A stretch of 64,000 nucleotides of DNA. Origin: Taibaiella koreensis. GTDB taxonomy: Bacteria > Bacteroidota > Bacteroidia > Chitinophagales > Chitinophagaceae. The position numbers and the translations under genes were made by a program. Position 1 is the first letter of the stretch, and every line of letters begins with the position of its first letter. The stretch covers positions 124,001 to 188,000 of the forward strand of contig NZ_QVNU01000003.1 of assembly GCF_003545715.1 (NCBI RefSeq). Direction: 5' to 3'. The notes under the pieces were generated by a model. The model did no database searches. It worked only from the letters and a program-made list of their open reading frames with translations, and was not told where the DNA came from. Shown one piece after another: positions 56,602 to 64,000 of this stretch.

Positions 56602-56634
56602 TTTGGTTGCAATGCCACTTTTGTTTTTACTTTG
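56602..56634 (+). promoter_or_regulatory. Promoter of the NAD/ADP-ribose operon
   Basis: TTTG at 56602-56605 and TACTTTG at 56628-56634, 22 bases apart, form a -33/-7 pair of Bacteroidetes type. The ATG of the regulator is at 56658, so the leader would be short. The -7 box overlaps the left half of the palindrome described next. Confidence 0.5.
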
Positions 56635-56651
56635 CGTCATAATAACGCAAA
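56631..56651 (+). promoter_or_regulatory. Candidate operator, 21-bp near-palindrome
   Basis: TTTGCGT (56631-56637) and ACGCAAA (56645-56651) are exact inverted halves around CATAATA; only one pair and the centre fail to match over 21 bases. It lies on the -7 box and just upstream of the NrtR-type gene. NrtR-family regulators bind palindromes of about this length upstream of NAD genes, so autogenous repression of the operon is the likely role. This is inference from position and symmetry; the motif itself has not been compared with others. Confidence 0.6.
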
Positions 56652-56657
56652 CTAAAC

Positions 56658-57344
56658 ATGACAAAACAGTTCAGCAGCTATAAAAATCCTTCGCTTGCCG
56701 TGGACCTGGTGGTCTTCGGTTATCACCAGCGGGAACTATCGGTATTGCTGCTTAACCGTAAGGACGAACCCTTTAAAAACGGATGGACCTTGCCCGGTGG
56801 CTTTTTACAAATGGAAGAGTCTTTGCTTGAAGTGTGCTCCCGTATCCTGAAGACTAAGCTGGGCATCGATAAGCTTTACCTCGAGCAGCTCTATACCTTT
56901 GATGAGCCGGACCGAGATCCGAGGGGCAGGGTGATCTCTGTGGCCCACTATGCGCTCATTAACCCGAGGCAGCTGGCCGTTGTAGCCGGCAGCATGGCCA
57001 ACGATGTGCAATGGTTCCCGGTAAACGCGCTACCCCGGCTGGGCTTCGATCATAAGCGCATTTTCGGACAGTCATTACAACGGTTGAAGTCTAAGATACT
57101 GTACCATCCTGTAGGCTTCGAGCTGCTGAATGATACCTTTACCATAACAGAGCTGCACGATCTGTATGAAACGATATTAGGTATTGAGATCGACAGGCGG
57201 AACTTCAGACGGAAGATACTCGACTCGGAATACATTATCGCTACAGGCGCCAAAAGAGAGGGGCTGAAGAACCGACATCCCGATCTGTACCGCTTCAATA
57301 AACATCTGAAACAAAATAATTTTCAACTTAATATTCCATCCTGA
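56658..57344 (+). CDS. nrtR: NrtR-type NUDIX transcriptional regulator
   Basis: A 228-residue protein with an N-terminal NUDIX domain (about 10-140) and a C-terminal winged helix (about 150-228, TITELHDLYETILGIEIDRR with the basic NFRRKIL next). This is the NrtR layout: a repressor of NAD synthesis genes that senses ADP-ribose or related compounds. The NUDIX box (GGFLQMEESLLEVCSR, 47-62) keeps the Gly, E54 and R62 but lacks the catalytic RExxEE glutamates (I63, T66, K67), so it should bind a ligand and not hydrolyse it. The stop overlaps the nadV start in TGATG, implying coupled translation. A near-palindrome overlaps its promoter. A related group in Bacteroides controls sugar genes, so the NAD role rests on the neighbouring genes. 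Confidence 0.85.
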   Translation: MTKQFSSYKNPSLAVDLVVFGYHQRELSVLLLNRKDEPFKNGWTLPGGFLQMEESLLEVCSRILKTKLGIDKLYLEQLYTFDEPDRDPRGRVISVAHYALINPRQLAVVAGSMANDVQWFPVNALPRLGFDHKRIFGQSLQRLKSKILYHPVGFELLNDTFTITELHDLYETILGIEIDRRNFRRKILDSEYIIATGAKREGLKNRHPDLYRFNKHLKQNNFQLNIPS

Positions 57345-58849
57345 TGAAAACGATACTTCCCATACTGCTGAAAGACGGCTATAAAGTAGGTCACAAGTTC
57401 CAGTACCCCGAAGGCACTACCCTTGTGTATTCCAATATGACACCGCGCCATTCCCGTAACCCGGAGATACCGGAGATCGTTTTCTTCGGTCTGCAATATT
57501 TTATCAGGGAATATCTTGTGCGCCAGTTTAACGAGGCCTTTTTCGGACAGCCAAAAGAGGCCGTATTGAAAGCTTATGCCCGCCGTATGGATCATTACCT
57601 GGGCAAAGATGCTGTGGGCTATGAACATATCGCGGCCCTACACGATCTCGGTTACCTGCCTCTGGAGATAAAAGCGCTTCCGGAGGGTAGCCAGGTACCT
57701 ATGCGCGTGCCGGTGTTGACCATAAGAAACACCCTGCCGGAGTTCTTTTGGCTCACCAATATGCTGGAGACCCTCATGAGCGCGATCATATGGAAACCCT
57801 GTACCTCTGCTACCACAGCCTTCCGGTACCTGAAAACCTTTACGCGTTATGCGGCAGAAACAGTGGGCGCCGACCGCAGCTTCATTCCCTGGCAAGGGCA
57901 CGACTTTTCTTTCCGGGGCATGAGCGGTGTGGAAGATGCGCTGATGAGCGGCGCTGGTCACCTGCTTTCCTTTGCCGGCACCGATACCATACCCGCGATC
58001 GATTTCCTGGAGACGTATTATGGTGCAGATTGTGAAGCAGAGCTGATCGGTGGTTCCGTACCGGCTACCGAGCATAGCGTGATGTGTATGGGCAGCCAGG
58101 ATGGCGAGATCGAAACTTTCGAGCGACTGATCACAAAAGTATATCCGGCCGGTGTGGTCTCGATCGTAAGCGATACCTGGGATTTCTGGCAGGTGATCAC
58201 CGATTTCCTGCCCGCACTGAAAGATAAGATACTGGCACGCGATGGTAAAGTGGTGATCCGCCCCGATAGCGGCGACCCGGTGAAGATCATTGTTGGCGAT
58301 GAAGACGCTATACCAGGCAGCCCGGAATACAAAGGTGCCATCGTATGTCTTTGGGAGACTTTCGGCGGGAACTTTACGGAAAAAGGGTACAAGCTGCTGG
58401 ACTCGCATATAGGTCTTATCTACGGCGACAGCATCACTACAGAACGGCAGGAAGCCATATTGGAAGGGCTGAAGCGTAAAGGCTTTGCCAGCTATAATGT
58501 GGTCCTTGGTATCGGCTCCTACACTTACGAATACGTGACGAGAGACACTTTCGGTTTCGCGATGAAAGCCACTTACGGCGAAGTGAACGGTGAAGGGAGA
58601 GCTATTTTTAAAGACCCCAAAACAGACGACGGAACGAAAAAGTCTGCCAAAGGGTTGATGCAGGTCTATCGCAGCGAAGCGACGGGCCGCCTGGAGCTCA
58701 AAGACCAGTGCAGCTGGGAGGAAGAGCAACAGGGCGAACTGAAAACCGTGTTCCGGGATGGTAAGCTCTTGACAGAAGAAACCCTGGCCGGTATCAGGGA
58801 AAGAATAAAGCAACAATTACAACAACCGGCGATAGTACCTGTGCTATAG
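57344..58849 (+). CDS. nadV: Nicotinamide phosphoribosyltransferase
   Basis: A 501-residue enzyme of the NAMPT/NadV type, which converts nicotinamide and PRPP to NMN, the salvage entry to NAD. Seen landmarks are the N-terminal LKDGYKVGHKFQYPEGT, the phosphoribosyl-binding region HDFSFRGMSGVEDA, the catalytic-histidine motif SVPATEHSVM (H244) and IRPDSGDPVKI (R306-D311), all in the order of the human enzyme. The length is that of NAMPT and not of nicotinate phosphoribosyltransferases, so nicotinamide is the likely substrate. It follows nrtR by translational overlap and is the second gene of the NAD/ADP-ribose operon. The nicotinamide it uses could come from the NAD-consuming enzymes downstream. 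Confidence 0.93.
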   Translation: MKTILPILLKDGYKVGHKFQYPEGTTLVYSNMTPRHSRNPEIPEIVFFGLQYFIREYLVRQFNEAFFGQPKEAVLKAYARRMDHYLGKDAVGYEHIAALHDLGYLPLEIKALPEGSQVPMRVPVLTIRNTLPEFFWLTNMLETLMSAIIWKPCTSATTAFRYLKTFTRYAAETVGADRSFIPWQGHDFSFRGMSGVEDALMSGAGHLLSFAGTDTIPAIDFLETYYGADCEAELIGGSVPATEHSVMCMGSQDGEIETFERLITKVYPAGVVSIVSDTWDFWQVITDFLPALKDKILARDGKVVIRPDSGDPVKIIVGDEDAIPGSPEYKGAIVCLWETFGGNFTEKGYKLLDSHIGLIYGDSITTERQEAILEGLKRKGFASYNVVLGIGSYTYEYVTRDTFGFAMKATYGEVNGEGRAIFKDPKTDDGTKKSAKGLMQVYRSEATGRLELKDQCSWEEEQQGELKTVFRDGKLLTEETLAGIRERIKQQLQQPAIVPVL

Positions 58850-58869
58850 CGTCGGATAAACAGATCACC

Positions 58870-59730
58870 ATGAAAAGAGGTACAAGAGCAGAAAAAGCTC
58901 AGGAAACATTGAAAATAATAGAACAAGGCTACTACGAAACCGATGGCCGGCGGATGCTGCTGGATGAAGCCATCCGGTCATCGTTGCAGGGGAGCCGTTT
59001 ATACCGGCCGGATGATTTTGAAGCCTTGCAGAAAGCGGTAGAAGTGAAATGTAAAAACCTGGATCATCGGACAGAAATAAAAGTGGTGCAAGGCACCGTG
59101 CTGGAAGCGGCCGCGGCCATGACTGCTACCGGCGACCGGGTGGGTTGCCTCAACTTTGCCTCGGCCAAAAATCCCGGAGGCGGCTTCCTGGGTGGCGCCC
59201 AGGCGCAGGAAGAAAGCCTGGCCCTGTCTTCGGCCCTGTACCCGACCCTGATGCAGCACTTCGATATGCACGAATACAACAGGAGCCGTAGCACATATCT
59301 CTATTCCGATCATATGATCTATAGTCCTGCAGTCCCGGTATTCCGTAACGACGAGGGCGCCTTGCTTCCGGAGTCCTATACATTGGACTTCATCACTAGC
59401 CCGGCCGTTAATATCGGCGCGATGAAGAGTAACCGGCCGGAAGAGCTGGGGCAGGCGGAAGCCGTGATGTTGTCACGGATGGATAAAGTGCTTGGGCTTT
59501 TTGTTCAGCATGGAATCACGCACTTATTGCTTGGAGCCTGGGGCTGCGGCGTCTTTCAGAACGATCCCGGCAATATCGCGGCGTACTTCGGCCGCTACTT
59601 GCTGCAGAATGGAAAGTATAGCCGTTGCTTTCATTCGGTGGTCTTCGCCATCTACGACCGTAGCAAGGACGGCGCTAATATTGCCGCCTTTCATAAGGTA
59701 TTCCGGAAAGAGGAGGTGCAGGTGTCATGA
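58870..59730 (+). CDS. TIGR02452 family, PARG-like macrodomain protein
   Basis: A 286-residue protein of the TIGR02452/DUF2263 family, distant relatives of poly(ADP-ribose) glycohydrolase. It starts KRGTRAEKAQETLKI, then a beta strand with VGCLNFASAKNPGGG and the PARG-type catalytic loop: GGG at 103-105 and QEE at 113-115 in GGGFLGGAQAQEESLALSS. The later LLGAWGCGVFQNDP is also typical. In related PARGs this loop positions the glutamates that hydrolyse ADP-ribose linkages, so removal of ADP-ribose from a substrate is expected. It follows nadV by 20 bases and its stop overlaps the DUF4291 start as ATGA. Confidence 0.88.
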   Translation: MKRGTRAEKAQETLKIIEQGYYETDGRRMLLDEAIRSSLQGSRLYRPDDFEALQKAVEVKCKNLDHRTEIKVVQGTVLEAAAAMTATGDRVGCLNFASAKNPGGGFLGGAQAQEESLALSSALYPTLMQHFDMHEYNRSRSTYLYSDHMIYSPAVPVFRNDEGALLPESYTLDFITSPAVNIGAMKSNRPEELGQAEAVMLSRMDKVLGLFVQHGITHLLLGAWGCGVFQNDPGNIAAYFGRYLLQNGKYSRCFHSVVFAIYDRSKDGANIAAFHKVFRKEEVQVS

Positions 59731-60377
59731 CGATACATACAGATTCGTACAGCAGTGTATATGATAAACTTCCGCCTGTGGGCAAACATTTGATCGCCCA
59801 CCAGCAATCGGACCAGCTTGTCGTATACCAGGCCTATAAGCCTGCCATTGCCGATTTTGCAGTGCGTAACCAGTTCCTGGGCGGTGATGCTTTCAGCTAT
59901 GACCGTATGTCCTGGATCAAGCCAGGCTTTCTGTGGATGATGTACCGGAGTGGCTGGGCCGCGAAGGAGCACCAGGAGCGCATTCTGGCCCTATGGATAC
60001 GCAAGGATCATTTTCTGACCCTGCTGGCAGAGGCGGTTCCCACTACTTTCAGGCCCTGGCAATACGATAGCCATGAGGCCTGGCAGCAGGACATGAGGAC
60101 CAGGAAGGTGAGGGTGCAATGGGATCCCGATCATGACCCATCAGGCCATAAGCTGGAGCGGCGCACCATACAGCTGGGTCTGAGCGGTAATGCCCTGGCT
60201 GCTTTTGGAAAGAACTATATTGAAAAGATAGAAGATATTACCACTTTCGTTCACGAACAAAGAGCCTTATTGAAGCAAAAAGGTGCGGAGGCGTTGCAGA
60301 TACCGGTAGAAACGGTATGGATGCTTGAGGATGCGCAGCTGAAGTTTCGCTTAGGTATGCAAAAGCAGGAAGCATGA
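59727..60377 (+). CDS. DUF4291 protein
   Basis: A 216-residue protein of the DUF4291 family. The conserved opening VYQAYKPAIADFAVRNQFLG is followed by DRMSWIKPGFLWMMYRSGW, and the middle carries VRVQWDPDHDPSGHKLERRT and then IQLGLSG. The family has no proven activity; in comparative genomics it turns up near NAD and ADP-ribose genes. A link to ADP-ribosyl transfer is possible but cannot be confirmed from this sequence. Translational overlaps (ATGA) on both sides place it firmly in the operon. Confidence 0.8.
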   Translation: MTIHTDSYSSVYDKLPPVGKHLIAHQQSDQLVVYQAYKPAIADFAVRNQFLGGDAFSYDRMSWIKPGFLWMMYRSGWAAKEHQERILALWIRKDHFLTLLAEAVPTTFRPWQYDSHEAWQQDMRTRKVRVQWDPDHDPSGHKLERRTIQLGLSGNALAAFGKNYIEKIEDITTFVHEQRALLKQKGAEALQIPVETVWMLEDAQLKFRLGMQKQEA

Positions 60378-60772
60378 AGACAAGAACTTTATACCGGCCG
60401 GTAGGCATGAAAGAGCTCGAGCGTATCGCCGCCCTCGACTGGCGAGGCTTTCCACCACGGCTGTCGTGGCAGCCGATCTTCTACCCTGTGCTGAACCAGG
60501 CATACGCCGAGCAGATCGCTGAAGACTGGAATACAGAAGATAGCTTTTCCGGCTACTGCGGCGTCGTTACGCGCTTTGATGTAGACGCGCTTTACCTGGA
60601 GCAATATGCCGTGCATCATGTTGGCGGTGACGGACATGATGAGTTGTGGATCCCGGCAGAAGAGCTGGAGACATTCAACAGGCATATCACCGGCAGAATA
60701 GAAGTGGTGAAGGTATTTACAGGATCTCAATTTGTGTTGCCTGAAGATCAGGCGTTGAAGCAATATTTTTAA
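60374..60772 (+). CDS. Small 'ADP-ribosylation/crystallin J1'-like protein
   Basis: A 132-residue protein. The family pattern I recognise is LYRPVGMKELERIAALDW, RGFPPRLSWQPIFYPVLNQ, YAEQIAEDWN and, near the end, HDELWIPAEELETFNRHI followed by TGRIEVV. Proteins with this pattern are often listed as 'ADP-ribosylation/crystallin J1', a label that gives no activity. The start LYRPVGMKEL and the ELWIPAEEL block recall the first and last strands of small ADP-ribosyltransferase folds (compare YHGT in KptA), so a transferase or an ADP-ribose-binding role is conceivable; this is inference. It overlaps DUF4291 by four bases and precedes NADAR by two. Confidence 0.7.
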   Translation: MKTRTLYRPVGMKELERIAALDWRGFPPRLSWQPIFYPVLNQAYAEQIAEDWNTEDSFSGYCGVVTRFDVDALYLEQYAVHHVGGDGHDELWIPAEELETFNRHITGRIEVVKVFTGSQFVLPEDQALKQYF

Positions 60773-60774
60773 TC

Positions 60775-61320
60775 ATGGAACAATACAATAAAGCATGGCT
60801 TGTAGAGCAGTACCGGAAGCAGGAAAGACTGAAGTTCCTGTTCTTCTGGGGACACCGGCCATCAAAAGACGGAAGCGTTACAGCGAGCTGCTTCAGCCAA
60901 TGGTGGATCGCTCCTTTTGAAGCGGAAGGCCATCGCTATCCCAGTGCAGAGCATTGGATGATGGCTCAAAAGGCCCTGCTGTTCAACGATGCGCCGATGG
61001 CAGAACAAATAAGGAAGTCCGCTTCTCCTGCGGCGGCAAAAAAGCTGGGCCGGCAGGTGCAAAGCTTCAATACAGCCATATGGGATGATCACAAGTTTGA
61101 GATCGTCAGGCAGGGCAACGTGTACAAATTCACACAGCACCCGGAACTGGGGCAATTTCTCCAGGATACGGGTGCACGCGTGCTGGTAGAGGCCAGCCCG
61201 GTAGACCCGGTATGGGGTATCGGTATGGCAGCGGATGATCCGCGTGCCGGAAATCCTTTGCAGTGGAAAGGCATGAACCTGCTTGGGTTTGCGTTGATGG
61301 CGGTGAGGGACCAAATTTAG
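60775..61320 (+). CDS. NADAR (YbiA-like, DUF1768) protein
   Basis: A 181-residue NADAR domain protein. Conserved features are FFWGH (23-27), CFSQWW, YPSAEHWMMAQKA (E59-H60-W61) and LVEASPVDPVWGIG (137-150). In this superfamily the conserved acidic residues act on ADP-ribose derivatives; some members remove ADP-ribose from guanine in nucleic acid, and others act in riboflavin-related salvage. Its neighbours here favour an ADP-ribose substrate. The start is ATG 60775, two bases after the previous stop. A 51-base gap with no terminator leads to the first macro-domain gene. Confidence 0.9.
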   Translation: MEQYNKAWLVEQYRKQERLKFLFFWGHRPSKDGSVTASCFSQWWIAPFEAEGHRYPSAEHWMMAQKALLFNDAPMAEQIRKSASPAAAKKLGRQVQSFNTAIWDDHKFEIVRQGNVYKFTQHPELGQFLQDTGARVLVEASPVDPVWGIGMAADDPRAGNPLQWKGMNLLGFALMAVRDQI

Positions 61321-61371
61321 GAACACCAAGCGGGAAGTGATTCTTCGTCGCCGGGTAAAAGAGAAAAGCAA

Positions 61372-61845
61372 ATGAGTACGATTCAATATTTAAAAGGAGA
61401 TGCTACGGTTCCCCAGGCCAGCGGTACAAAGATCATTGCCCATATATGCAATGATATCGGCGGCTGGGGGAAAGGGTTTGTACTGGCTATTTCGAAGCGA
61501 TGGCAGGAACCAGAGGCTGCCTACCGGAAATGGCATAGAGAAAGGAATACAAATGATTTTAGTCTCGGCTGCATTCAGCTGGTGCAGGTAGGTCCGTACA
61601 TCCACATCGCAAACATGATTGGTCAACGGGGAACGAAGACAGGAAGTAAAGGCGTACCCATATGTTATGATGCTGTGGCAGCATGTTTACATGCCGTAGC
61701 GAAGCATGCTTCCCGTTTAAACGCCAGCGTTCATATGCCGAGGATCGGCTGCGGCCTTGCGGGCGGGTCCTGGGACCGGATAGAGCCGCTTATAGCCGCT
61801 GCGTTAATTGAAAAAGACATACCTGTTTTTGTATACGATTTTTAA
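61372..61845 (+). CDS. Macro domain protein, first (ALC1/TARG1-like)
   Basis: A 157-residue single macro domain, which binds or hydrolyses ADP-ribose compounds. The ligand-loop sequence is [20 protein letters not shown], followed by [15 protein letters not shown] and, near the C-terminus, [20 protein letters not shown]. The [10 protein letters not shown] form places it with the TARG1/ALC1-like macro proteins, which are different from the MacroD type encoded next. It may act on ADP-ribose 1''-phosphate or on ADP-ribosylated nucleic acid or protein. Its start is ATG 61372, 51 bases after NADAR. Confidence 0.88.
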
Positions 61846-61855
61846 AGACACAAAA

Positions 61856-62368
61856 ATGAAGCTGGAACTGATCAAAGGAGACATTACCACACTTGCAGTT
61901 GACGCCATTGTGAATGCAGCCAATAGCTCGCTTTTGGGCGGTGGCGGCGTAGATGGCGCCATCCACAGGAAAGGTGGTAAGGCGATCCTGGAGGCCTGTA
62001 TGGCTATCCGTGCCCGGCAAGGCGGCTGCGATACCGGCCAGGCGGTGATCACCACAGCCGGCAATTTGCCTGCACAATATGTGATCCATACGGTAGGGCC
62101 GGTTTGGAATGGTGGGAACAAACGGGAGGAAGCGCTGCTGCGCGATTGTTATAGCAATAGCCTGAAGCTGGCCGTGGACAATGGTTTACGGACAGTAGCG
62201 TTTCCCAATATCAGCACGGGCATCTACCATTTTCCAAAGAATCGTGCCGCCACGATAGCCATCGAGGCTGTGCTGGGATTTGAAGAGAGGGAAAAATTGG
62301 ATAAAGTGATCTTCGTGTGCTTTGATGAAGAGAATTATGTTTTATACCGGCAACATGGCAACTTCTGA
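61856..62368 (+). CDS. Macro domain protein, second (MacroD/YmdB type)
   Basis: A 170-residue MacroD/YmdB-type macro domain. The active loop [20 protein letters not shown] (18-37) is intact, as are [28 protein letters not shown] and [13 protein letters not shown]. Proteins of this group remove mono-ADP-ribose from acidic residues and hydrolyse O-acetyl-ADP-ribose. The start is ATG 61856; an upstream in-frame extension overlaps the previous gene and has no family likeness. Its stop overlaps the next gene by 14 bases. Confidence 0.93.
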
Positions 62369-63302
62369 TGATCGATTGAAATTAGCGGCACGTTCGCTTT
62401 CCGGCACCGCTATCGGCGATGCCTTCGGAGAGTGTTTCTTTGGTGCGCAGGAACAGATGCTTGATCACATACAGAACAAGCACTTACCCCTGGAGAGGCT
62501 GATGTTTACAGACGATACCATTATGGCGATCGCTTTGTTCCGTTCGCTGGAGGCTTTCGGAACCATCGATAAAGACTATGTTCTGGGCTGTTTTCTGCAA
62601 AACTATCAAATAGATACCCATAGAGGCTATGGGCCGTCCATGCATCATTTCTTTCGCGAAGTGGCGGCAGGTGCTGATGGGAAGAAAGTTGCAGCTGAGA
62701 AGTTTGAAGGTATGGGCTCGATGGGCAACGGAAGCGCCATGAGGGCGGCGCTTATCGGTGCTTATTTTTATGATAACCTGGCGTTGGTGAAGCTGCAGAC
62801 AGCTGCTTCTTCCATCATCACCCATACGAACATAGAAGCGGTGGCCGGGGCCATTGCCGTGGCTACAGCGGCTGCCCTGGCGACCCGGCAACAGGAAATG
62901 GGCGAACGATACAGCCGGAATACCTTTCTGAATGAGATCATCGAAGCGCTTCCGCAATCAGACACACGGTCACAGATCGGCAAGGCCCGCGCTATGGAAG
63001 GCAGCTACAGCATACCGACCCTTGTCGCTGCTCTGGGCAACGGAACACGGATGCTAGCCCAGGATACGGTGCCCCTGGCGCTATGGTGTGCTGCCAAACA
63101 TTTGAATGATTTTGAAGCCTGTCTTTGGGAATTGGTATCGGCCCTGGGTGACAGGGACACTTTATGTGCTATTGCCGGCGGCATCGTCGCCTTGTCGGCG
63201 CCCGAAACAACCATACCCCTATCCTGGCAGCACCAGGTGGAATCCTGGAAGGAAAGCGATTTTTATAAACAACCCTTAAGATCATGGAAACAAAACAACT
63301 AA
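62355..63302 (+). CDS. ADP-ribosylglycohydrolase (DraG/ARH family)
   Basis: A 315-residue member of the ARH/DraG family, which removes ADP-ribose from proteins or other acceptors. Metal-binding motifs are [10 protein letters not shown] (21-30), FTDDT (51-55) and [13 protein letters not shown] (265-277); [10 protein letters not shown] (123-132) is also typical. The protein is helical throughout. The start ATG at 62355 overlaps the previous macro gene; other in-frame ATGs upstream lie deep inside it. Its stop overlaps kptA by 19 bases. DraG-like enzymes in bacteria are often paired with a transferase, which may be the DUF4291 or the small 132-residue protein upstream. Confidence 0.93.
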
Positions 63303-63826
63303 AAACAATAAGCAAGTTCCTGAGCCTGGTGCTCAGGCATAGCCCCGAAACCATAGGCCTGCAGCTGGATGCAGAAGGATGGGCAAATGTGCAGGAGCTG
63401 ATCGGGAAAACAGCCCGTGGGCACCATCCGCTTACGCTGTCGCTGCTGGAGCAGATCGTTGCCGATAATGATAAGCAGCGCTTTGCTTTCAGCGACGACC
63501 GGCAGCTGATAAGGGCGAGCCAGGGTCATTCGGTAATGATAGATCTGAAGCTCGATCCACAGCCGCCGCCAGAGTATCTGTATCACGGTACGGTCGGGCA
63601 AAACCTTGAAGCGATCAGGGCCGGTGGATTGAATAAGATGAGTCGCCGGCATGTACACTTGAGCAGGGACAGAGAACTGGCACAGCAAGTAGGCGGCAGG
63701 CGCGGCAAGCCGGTGGTACTGAGGATAAGGGCCGGCCTCATGGACCAGGACGGCATCTCCTTTTATTTATCAGACAATGGCGTATGGTTGACCGATCATG
63801 TGCCGGTCCAATACATAGAATTTTAA
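63284..63826 (+). CDS. kptA: RNA 2'-phosphotransferase (Tpt1/KptA)
   Basis: A 180-residue enzyme that removes an internal 2'-phosphate from RNA by transferring it to NAD, releasing nicotinamide and forming ADP-ribose 1'',2''-cyclic phosphate. The N-terminal winged helix carries VLRHSPE (R18, H19), and IRASQGHS is at 76-83; the catalytic domain has YLYHGT with H101 and RRHVHLS at 121-127, ending QYIEF. All landmarks for the RNA phosphotransferase are present. In this operon the products are nicotinamide and ADP-ribose cyclic phosphate, which fit the NadV and macro-domain neighbours. It overlaps the previous gene by 19 bases. Confidence 0.93.
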   Translation: METKQLKTISKFLSLVLRHSPETIGLQLDAEGWANVQELIGKTARGHHPLTLSLLEQIVADNDKQRFAFSDDRQLIRASQGHSVMIDLKLDPQPPPEYLYHGTVGQNLEAIRAGGLNKMSRRHVHLSRDRELAQQVGGRRGKPVVLRIRAGLMDQDGISFYLSDNGVWLTDHVPVQYIEF

Positions 63827-63833
63827 AAGAGAA

Positions 63834-64000
63834 ATGAAGATGAGCTATATCAAAGAAACATCCGAGATCTATACCATAGATCAGTTCCTCAGCGAGGCGG
63901 AATGCGATCAGCTGATCGCGCAGGCGGAGACGACCGGTTTCCAGGAAGCGAAGGTCAATATCGACGGCGGCCAGAAGATGATGAAGATGATCCGCGACAA
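63834..64000 (+). CDS. 2OG-Fe(II) oxygenase (prolyl hydroxylase-like), 5' part
   Basis: The first 55 codons of a gene cut by the right edge. The visible sequence ETSEIYTIDQFLSEAECDQ, then LIAQAETTGFQEAKV and MMKMIRD, fits the N-terminus of the prolyl-4-hydroxylase-like 2OG-Fe(II) oxygenases, in which a similar IRNNDR follows. The catalytic HxD...H motif would lie beyond the edge and cannot be checked. It starts seven bases after kptA, so it belongs to the same operon. The role in an NAD/ADP-ribose cluster is unclear; related oxygenases act on nucleic acid or protein. Confidence 0.65.
   Translation, partial: MKMSYIKETSEIYTIDQFLSEAECDQLIAQAETTGFQEAKVNIDGGQKMMKMIRD

Follow-up and report, generated by a model that had tools for sequence, protein, structure and literature searches.

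Organization of the operon

The stretch of DNA analyzed here, referred to as the window, comprises 64,000 nucleotides of the 5.94-Mb genome of Taibaiella koreensis (positions 124001 to 188000 of contig NZ_QVNU01000003.1). Near its right end begins an operon of 14 co-directional genes on the plus strand that runs from 56658 to approximately 66976, past the window edge. These genes, which are presumably co-transcribed, probably form a system that recycles ADP-ribose to NAD+. Of the 13 junctions, seven are overlaps, and the gaps reach at most 51 bp, with ATG starts of our choice assumed for ARH1 and Adps. Genes beyond 64000 are given by their coordinates on a fetched stretch, L003, and their window positions are extrapolated (the prefixes L and G denote fetched loci and genomes, respectively). 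In order, the features are as follows.

56631-56651, plus strand: putative NrtR operator, a perfect palindrome (TTTGCGT-CATAATA-ACGCAAA) that ends 6 bp before the NrtR start
56658-57344, plus strand: NrtR-family regulator with Nudix and winged-helix domains (Pfam NrtR_WHD, 4e-23; NUDIX, 3e-12)
57344-58849, plus strand: predicted Namat-type nicotinamide ADP-ribose transferase, originally read as NAMPT/NadV (Pfam NAPRTase/NAMPT_N)
58870-59730, plus strand: microbial PARG-type ADP-ribose glycohydrolase (Pfam PARG_cat_microb, 1e-47), with a 4-bp overlap with the DUF4291 start
59727-60377, plus strand: DUF4291 protein with a predicted ADP-ribosyltransferase (ART) fold (Pfam DUF4291; structure model)
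60374-60772, plus strand: 132-amino-acid (aa) protein with a predicted ART fold (structure model; invariant R8-Y37-E90)
60775-61320, plus strand: NADAR (Pfam NADAR, 7e-55)
61372-61845, plus strand: DarG-like macro domain (PADLOC DarG, 6e-9; NCBIfam antitoxin_DarG, 1e-7, below cut-off; no Pfam match at 1e-3)
61856-62368, plus strand: MacroD/YmdB-like macro domain (Pfam Macro, 6e-49; NCBIfam NF001664, 236.7 bits against a 200-bit cut-off)
62355-63302, plus strand: ADP-ribosylglycohydrolase (ARH/DraG) 1, ARH1 (Pfam ADP_ribosyl_GH, 6e-45), overlapping the preceding gene by 14 bp and KptA by 19 bp
63284-63826, plus strand: KptA/Tpt1 RNA 2'-phosphotransferase (Pfam PTS_2-RNA, 4e-51)
63834-64000, plus strand, cut by the window end (whole gene L003:9835-10398): 2-oxoglutarate (2OG)-Fe(II) oxygenase (2OG-FeII_Oxy_3, 7e-12)
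L003:10391-11362 (about 64390-65361 of the window), plus strand: ARH2 (ADP_ribosyl_GH, 3e-76)
L003:11359-12090 (about 65358-66089), plus strand: calcineurin-like phosphatase, MPP (Metallophos, 4e-17)
L003:12132-12977 (about 66131-66976), plus strand: Adps, Prs-like (phrog_619, 237 bits)

An original prediction, made from the letters of the window, had described eleven closely packed genes on one strand with several stop/start overlaps, and had expected the operon to continue to the right. The gene coordinates bear out the packing, and three more genes on the same strand (ARH2, the phosphatase and the Prs-like gene) raise the count to 14. Its family assignments for NrtR, NAPRTase/NAMPT, PARG, DUF4291, NADAR, ARH, KptA and the 2OG oxygenase agree with Pfam, and its two different macro domains are recovered, one by Pfam Macro and the other by the DarG models of PADLOC and NCBIfam. 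The label "crystallin-J1-like" that it gave to the 132-aa protein found no support: this protein has no match in Pfam, PADLOC, PHROG or NCBIfam. The prediction also overlooked Adps and the phosphatase, as well as the ART folds predicted for the DUF4291 and 132-aa proteins. The phosphatase resembles the phosphatase part of bacterial Pnkp (NCBIfam, 1e-14, below cut-off).

Namat and Adps form a predicted NARP1 pair

The second and last genes of the operon are predicted from their sequences to encode NARP1, which would convert ADP-ribose and nicotinamide to NAD+, instead of a salvage route through nicotinamide mononucleotide (NMN). The best PDB matches of the second gene product are 9W5X and 9W5W, the Namat of phage SPbetaL1, at 586 bits, followed at 474 bits by 9ke8, titled nicotinamide phosphoribosyltransferase, while other Nampt chains (2GVL, 2H3D and others) reach at most 239 bits. 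The published Namat signature is GS-X-phi-X-phi-X-phi-TRD, where X is aromatic (PMC12774641). The sequence GSYTYEYVTRD of the window protein fits this signature, and an arginine of the protein aligns with the clamp-loop stacking residue R40 of SPbetaL1 Namat, as expected of a NARP1 enzyme. The protein is the sole match to PF04095 in the genome.

A comparison of 59 proteins of the NadV family, drawn from operons, phages and plasmids (NadV pieces shorter than 400 aa were dropped) links the signature to the presence of Adps. The strict signature occurs in 41 of the 43 rows with Adps in the locus and in none of the 16 without it (Fisher 1.4e-12, uncorrected for kinship); the two rows with Adps that lack it are phage proteins. 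The tree of the family splits with 100/100 support into 44 rows, made up of the 43 with Adps and Haemophilus ducreyi pNAD1, and 15 rows without Adps. The H. ducreyi NadV (plasmid pNAD1, L153), which lies inside the Namat clade, is without Adps and carries the motif GAQTYQRNTRD, looks as if it had reverted to the use of phosphoribosyl pyrophosphate (PRPP).

Adps matches the same protein family, phrog_619, as NrsA of phage ICP1 (285 bits), and the ICP1 NrsAB pair restores NAD+ during infection (PMC11559045). The operon Adps is 39 to 72% identical to the Adps of other operons, 29 to 41% identical (82 to 140 bits) to phage Adps, and 26% identical over 193 aa (64 bits) to the genome's own Prs, which is encoded on another contig and scores 352 bits against NCBIfam ribP_PPkin. 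The bacterial NARP1 homologs of PMC12774641 were selected by an adps gene within 10 genes. In T. koreensis, Adps lies 12 genes downstream of Namat, on the same strand and in the same operon; in a congener, G001, it lies two genes after Namat, remnants aside, and the two share a cluster in 18 of 19 sampled loci.

A second predicted chemistry is found in related operons. Six Chitinophagaceae KptA loci without Adps (L122, L124, L125, L127, L129 and L132) have a PRPP-type NadV together with a Nudix protein whose N-terminal part is NMN-adenylyltransferase-like; three of these Nudix proteins were scanned, and CTP_transf_like was found in one. NrtR is present in five of the six, the sixth being cut by a contig end, and L132 has NadR. 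Of the 16 loci that lack Adps, 7 have a homologue of the NMN-adenylyltransferase-like part or of NadR; none was found in the 43 with Adps, though distant ones would escape the search. This partition fits the chemistry, since NMN requires an adenylyltransferase and the Namat product does not. Salvage through NMN by this operon, which the original prediction had assigned to NadV, was rejected on the tree, the signature and the failure of our search to find an NMN-adenylyltransferase-like protein in the 43 Adps loci, one annotated neighbor in L148 aside: the enzyme is of the Namat type and has Adps in the same operon.

Conservation of the operon and loss of its cargo in a congener

Before counting, short search loci of 1.7 to 3.9 kb and second copies (L001, L002, L116, L118 and L119) were dropped. 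One locus was held twice (L103 and L214, by shared 60-mers), and L103 is excluded from the adjacency, DUF4291 and operator counts; the near-copies L148/L154 and L199/L203, recognized by branch lengths, were left in.

Conservation is most fairly judged with Adps as the anchor. Adps is detected at E<=1e-30 in 20 of 395 Bacteroidota genomes, representing 5 of 171 genera. The 19 other Adps loci, on stretches of up to 20 kb, contain Namat (18), NrtR (17), NADAR (15), KptA (15), MPP (12), ARH2-labelled genes (11), the macro domain labelled macroB (9), DUF4291 (6), ARH1-labelled genes (6), and the 132-aa protein, DarG-like macro domain and oxygenase (5 each), as well as PARG (4). At least one eraser or KptA is present in 16 of the 19. 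The suggestion that these genes are one conserved unit is supported. Groupings of many of the families are seen again in other Chitinophagaceae as well as in Flavobacteriaceae and Emticicia. Full-cargo loci of Chitinophagaceae are arranged NrtR-Namat-cargo-Adps, and the usual order in Flavobacteriaceae is NrtR-Adps-cargo-Namat. The comparison of gene order across Bacteroidota that had been suggested as a check thus finds the families kept together in several genera.

Loci were also collected from individual cargo families. A PARG-anchored scan of named genomes kept 80 of 318 relatives, with one locus each. KptA was found in 29 of 117 genomes of the family, and 13 of the fetched KptA loci have an NrtR-labelled open reading frame (ORF), that of L122 being the Nudix-NMN adenylyltransferase protein. 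A profile of the 132-aa protein matched 14 of 395 genomes; no other operon family was seen next to it in the stretches retrieved from G388, G469 and G493, some of which are short contigs. In L220 (G412) the 132-aa family is paired with a macro domain, with no other operon family in the 20-kb stretch, an arrangement reminiscent of DarT-DarG.

The congener G001 provides a natural cargo deletion. At its syntenic locus, NrtR, Namat, MPP and Adps are intact frames, with dN/dS values relative to T. koreensis of 0.043, 0.050, 0.079 and 0.073, respectively, at a saturated dS of more than 1. NADAR, macroB and the oxygenase are reduced to remnants, and the locus yielded no match to PARG, DUF4291, the 132-aa protein, the DarG-like macro domain, either ARH or KptA. 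The whole G001 genome is without KptA. Judged by its sequence, the core is kept in the absence of the cargo.

Additional recurring cargo was found by sequence clustering, with one representative per cluster scanned, in L199, L203, L204, L206 to L210, L212, L214, L216, L217 and other loci. It includes SIR2 (11 distinct loci), nucleoside deoxyribosyltransferase-like proteins (11), a metallo-beta-lactamase fold (7) and DUF6939 (2). A trio composed of an adenylosuccinate-synthetase-like protein, a 286-aa protein (no Pfam match, vWA-like by eye) and a 111-aa protein occurs in 11 loci.

The NrtR regulator and its putative operator

The first gene product fuses a Nudix domain to an NrtR winged helix, as is characteristic of the NrtR family, and is preceded by a palindrome predicted to be its operator, in line with the NrtR-type regulator proposed originally. 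It scores 147 bits against the NCBIfam model for ADPR-responsive NtrR, below the cut-off of 400. The catalytic Glu residues of its Nudix box are lost. Loss of catalysis as a trait of the whole family was considered and rejected, since the box is intact in 26 of 63 NrtR rows by our own pattern; it is nearly intact in many flavobacterial rows.

The sequence TTTGCGT-N7-ACGCAAA at 56631-56651 occurs in exact form nowhere else in the window or the genome. With up to two mismatches, TTTGYGT-N7-ACRCAAA precedes 31 of 56 NrtR-labelled ORFs (14 exactly) at -9 to -31, versus 0.42% of 5700 shuffles; part of these 56 ORFs are Nudix proteins and not regulators, and the consensus was drawn partly from the sequences on which it was scored. 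A window scan at three mismatches gave one match where 3.4 were expected. The site is therefore distinguished by its exactness and position, not by the number of matches. A promoter and terminator scan was uninformative (10 promoter-like sequences versus 12.0 in shuffles, and 10 terminator-like versus 10.6). By analogy with the NrtR proteins of Shewanella and Synechocystis, we infer that ADP-ribose is the ligand.

Two proteins with predicted ART folds

Structure modelling predicts that the DUF4291 and 132-aa proteins are likely ART folds whose nearest structural match is the RNA-modifying toxin domain RhsP2. The AF2 model of DUF4291 (pLDDT 92, from a 16-row alignment) has RhsP2 (7rt7) as its best Foldseek match (E 1e-5, TMt 0.71), with further matches of weak score to ParT, exotoxin A domain III, Xre-RES and DarT; compared with viral predicted structures, it gave no match at E<=0.001. 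The model of the 132-aa protein (pLDDT 95, 18 rows) also retrieves 7rt7 (E 4e-3, prob 1.00), followed by many Tpt1/KptA structures. The query-length TM-scores of the two models, 0.48 to 0.53, are no proof of activity.

Residues R8, Y37 and E90 of the 132-aa protein are invariant in 18 of 18 rows. The triad of RhsP2 is R1490-Y1524-E1576 (PMC12340436), so that the spacings are 29 and 53 in the 132-aa protein versus 34 and 52 in RhsP2, as matched by position only. DUF4291 is without a plain R/H-S/Y-E set, the residues found by position being Y34/Q35, W63 and Q149, which speaks against an endogenous ART.

Both proteins tend to lie beside particular erasers. Of the 18 arrays with both DUF4291 and PARG, 15 have them side by side (shuffled mean 3.5), and the 132-aa protein is adjacent to macroB in 14 of 18 (4.7) and to NADAR in 13 of 21 (4.3); likewise, KptA and the oxygenase are adjacent in 12 of 17 arrays (3.0). 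The arrays are related, and the shuffles overstate their independence and inflate the significance of these counts. PARG is missing from 7 of the 25 tabulated DUF4291 arrays. Two genomes that belong to one genus have the 132-aa domain joined to PARG in one frame (L216:10018-11256 and L217:10059-11291); frames of about 375 to 445 aa that hold the 132-aa domain are also present in L086, L199 and L218. PARG is the only hydrolase type reported to reverse the RhsP2-type modification of RNA 2'-OH groups (PMC11833690).

A neighboring RNA-repair island

To the right of the operon, two small reverse-strand genes are followed by a reverse-strand RNA-repair island (L003:13889-20000 and L114:29-9865, about 67888 to 82865 of the window). 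It contains a PNKP, a Pnkp-type ligase, Hen1, a second PNKP, RlaP-like proteins, an Rnl1-type ligase, RNase T and a Band-7 protein. The ligase, kinase/phosphatase and Hen1 genes that the original prediction had expected in this direction are thus present, on the opposite strand. Beyond the island lie a RING protein (SCO0854-like) and a divergent WYL regulator.

Of 117 genomes of the family, 4 have Hen1, and T. koreensis is the sole one of these that also has KptA. G001 keeps the Hen1 module and NARP1 and has no KptA, and KptA is likewise missing from several loci that contain both Adps and Namat (L050, L198, L206, L213 and L215). The linkage of the Hen1/Pnkp island to the operon is not conserved, and we treat the island as a neighbor. 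RNA repair as the core theme of the operon, part of the original proposal, was rejected on the independent distribution of Hen1 and is weakened further by the persistence of the core without KptA. Two phage NARP1 pairs have RNA-processing neighbors: Mycobacterium phage CELFI (L145:1105-4456) has the order Adps-Namat-polynucleotide kinase, and the pair of Pseudomonas phage ZGC (L146:1-3683) lies near an RNA ligase.

Proposed function and alternatives

We consider it probable that the operon is a chromosomal, NrtR-controlled system for recycling ADP-ribose to NAD+ that is fed by its own erasers. NAD+ would be spent on ADP-ribosylation by KptA, perhaps by the DUF4291 and 132-aa proteins, or by foreign enzymes, to give nicotinamide and ADP-ribose adducts. 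PARG, NADAR, both macro domains and both ARHs would release ADP-ribose from different linkages, and the cyclic phosphate that KptA produces may be a substrate of the phosphatase, which would open or dephosphorylate it. Free ADP-ribose would then release NrtR from the operator. Adps would pyrophosphorylate ADP-ribose, and Namat would couple the product to nicotinamide, giving NAD+ directly. We infer all of these enzyme activities, together with the parts played by the phosphatase and the oxygenase and the natural trigger of the system. The joining of NAD recycling to ADP-ribose clearance, already proposed from the window, draws its support from the recurring linkage of the genes.

Several observations weigh against this reading. 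On the enzymes, the NCBIfam name of the second gene product is nicotinate phosphoribosyltransferase (590.6 bits against a cut-off of 405), a name that does not separate Namat from Nampt, and in vitro Namat makes NMN from PRPP too (PMC12774641), so that the operon enzyme may use PRPP as well. The tree program warned that the Namat/NadV split joins long branches, and several phage rows are long; Adps passes the cut-off for ribose-phosphate diphosphokinase, ribP_PPkin (118 to 119 against 113 bits); and L148, one of the 43 Adps loci, has an annotated NMN adenylyltransferase/Nudix neighbor beside Adps-Namat. On conservation, 375 of 395 genomes are without Adps at E<=1e-30, and of the 19 other loci, 15 belong to a single genus and the remainder to three more. 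Three Adps loci (L198, L213 and L215) are without eraser or KptA and have NrtR-Adps-(MPP)-Namat only, while cargo stands without Adps and NadV in cis in 6 of 44 tabulated loci (L121, L123, L131 and L216 to L218), some of these stretches being cut. At least three operon families, as labelled, are found in 21 of the 80 PARG loci, and a true NrtR lies near only 12 of the 29 KptA loci of the family; KptA and PARG often stand apart. On regulation, 25 of the 56 NrtR-labelled upstream regions have no site at two mismatches, several flavobacterial operons among them, although some of these 25 ORFs do not encode regulators, and the genome holds 20 copies with up to two mismatches versus 17 in a reversed-pattern control. 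The NrtR family also includes the arabinose sensor AraR of Bacteroides (PMC4666351), which makes the ligand uncertain.

The model that came with the original prediction has KptA release nicotinamide for NAMPT/NadV to turn into NMN, so that the operon would be the NAD arm of RNA 2'-phosphate repair, including the Hen1, Pnkp and ligase neighbors. KptA is indeed in the operon and in 15 of 19 Adps-anchored loci, a Mycobacterium phage joins Adps and Namat to a polynucleotide kinase, and Hen1, two Pnkp-like kinases/phosphatases, two ligases and RlaP proteins adjoin. We nonetheless regard this model as improbable, given the Namat signature and Adps in the operon, the failure of our search to find an NMN-adenylyltransferase-like protein in the 43 Adps loci (the annotated neighbor in L148 aside), the single Hen1 genome with KptA, and a congener that combines Hen1 with NARP1 without KptA. 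Moreover, 2'-phosphate repair has no known need for a DarG-like macro domain, ARH or NADAR. A grouping of unrelated genes by chance or by generic defence-island drift would agree with the often solitary KptA and PARG genes elsewhere, yet it is very unlikely indeed: composition, end order and operator are conserved in several genera, and the Adps-anchored loci speak strongly against it for the core. It was rejected on the presence of Namat in 18 and NrtR in 17 of the 19 Adps loci.

Two other explanations each seem to us a real, if not the favored, possibility. In one, the operon is a writer-eraser or toxin-antitoxin island, in which the DUF4291 and 132-aa proteins would be ARTs acting on RNA or other targets, curbed by PARG, macro domains and NADAR, with NARP1 repaying the NAD+; it complements more than opposes recycling. 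The RhsP2-like folds of both proteins, the invariant R-Y-E set of the 132-aa protein, as in RhsP2, the adjacency to erasers above shuffles and the 132-aa-PARG fusion point this way, as does the reversal of RhsP2-type marks by PARG (PMC11833690). Kinship, however, inflates the adjacency, DUF4291 has no evident R-Y-E set and in part lacks PARG in its arrays, and TM-scores of this size do not prove activity. In the other, of comparable plausibility, the operon would shield the cell from foreign ADP-ribosylation by ARTs of phages or rival toxins and from NAD+ depletion, a role already proposed for ARG-centred host systems, with the erasers cleaning host molecules and NARP1 restoring NAD+. Many eraser classes are present, the cargo varies among related genomes, with SIR2 and other variable genes, and arrays are described in which an ARG accompanies Nudix or WYL regulators, phosphatases, Macro and NADAR (PMC9503650). 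What defines those systems is that no ART or sirtuin is coupled to them, whereas this operon has KptA and two ART-fold proteins.

Returning to recycling fed by the operon's own erasers, we tentatively suggest, as a conjecture rather than an expectation, that it may amount to a self-contained ADP-ribose economy. The DUF4291 and 132-aa proteins would be new endogenous ART families that reversibly mark the cell's own RNA or another target, adjacent or fused PARG, macro and NADAR proteins would erase the marks, and NARP1 under an ADP-ribose sensor would rebuild NAD+. If so, the home of NARP1 would be bacterial reversible ADP-ribosylation, from which phages acquired it later.

Relation to known systems

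NARP1 is known as a phage counter-defence, and its bacterial role is stated to be open (PMC12774641). The operon offers a concrete role, the reuse of ADP-ribose freed by de-ADP-ribosylation, and names two uncharacterized conserved families as likely ART folds beside particular erasers. Natural controls are at hand in the core-only operons, the cargo-deleted congener and the PRPP-type operons in which an NMN-adenylyltransferase-like protein replaces Adps. In the literature searched, no paper was found on NARP1 together with NrtR, and, among papers that hold at least three of the relevant terms, none combines NARP1 with a macrodomain or NADAR by term counts, although papers with only two such terms would escape these counts.

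Known NrtR regulons drive NMN-type or de novo NAD synthesis. The operon shares with them an NrtR regulator beside an NAD synthesis gene and a palindromic site before the operon, but its NrtR would control the reuse of ADP-ribose. With the NARP1 of phages and of Paenibacillus foliorum, it shares a Prs-like Adps, a Nampt-like Namat with the signature and the predicted chemistry (PMC12774641; for NrsAB of phage ICP1, PMC11559045). The Paenibacillus pair makes NAD+ from ADP-ribose and nicotinamide (PMC12774641), and a phage glycosidase that releases ADP-ribose fuels NARP1 (PMC13232231). To these, the operon adds an NrtR-type regulator, six ADP-ribose erasers, KptA and two ART-fold proteins.

The ARG-centred host systems of PMC9503650 share an ADP-ribosylglycohydrolase, a Nudix-HTH regulator, a calcineurin-type phosphatase, Macro and NADAR. 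As far as section 3.8 of that paper describes them, they have no pair that rebuilds NAD+, were selected for the absence of ARTs and occur in actinobacteria, planctomycetes and proteobacteria. The operon has the ADP-ribosylglycohydrolase, the Nudix regulator and the phosphatase of such systems; it is not classed among them because of KptA, its two ART folds and the SIR2-like proteins in 11 distinct related loci. The ligase-PARG-kinase/phosphatase operon of Deinococcus radiodurans has the same link of PARG to nucleic-acid end processing, but consists of three genes, and the text consulted mentions no NARP1, NrtR, NADAR or macro gene there (PMC11833690). Genes of Hen1-Pnkp-Rnl RNA repair (PMC4411300) adjoin the operon, but on the opposite strand and with a separate distribution. 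The parts of this operon are known from several systems; what looks new, relative to the literature searched, is their combination, together with the regulator and the two partners of predicted ART fold.

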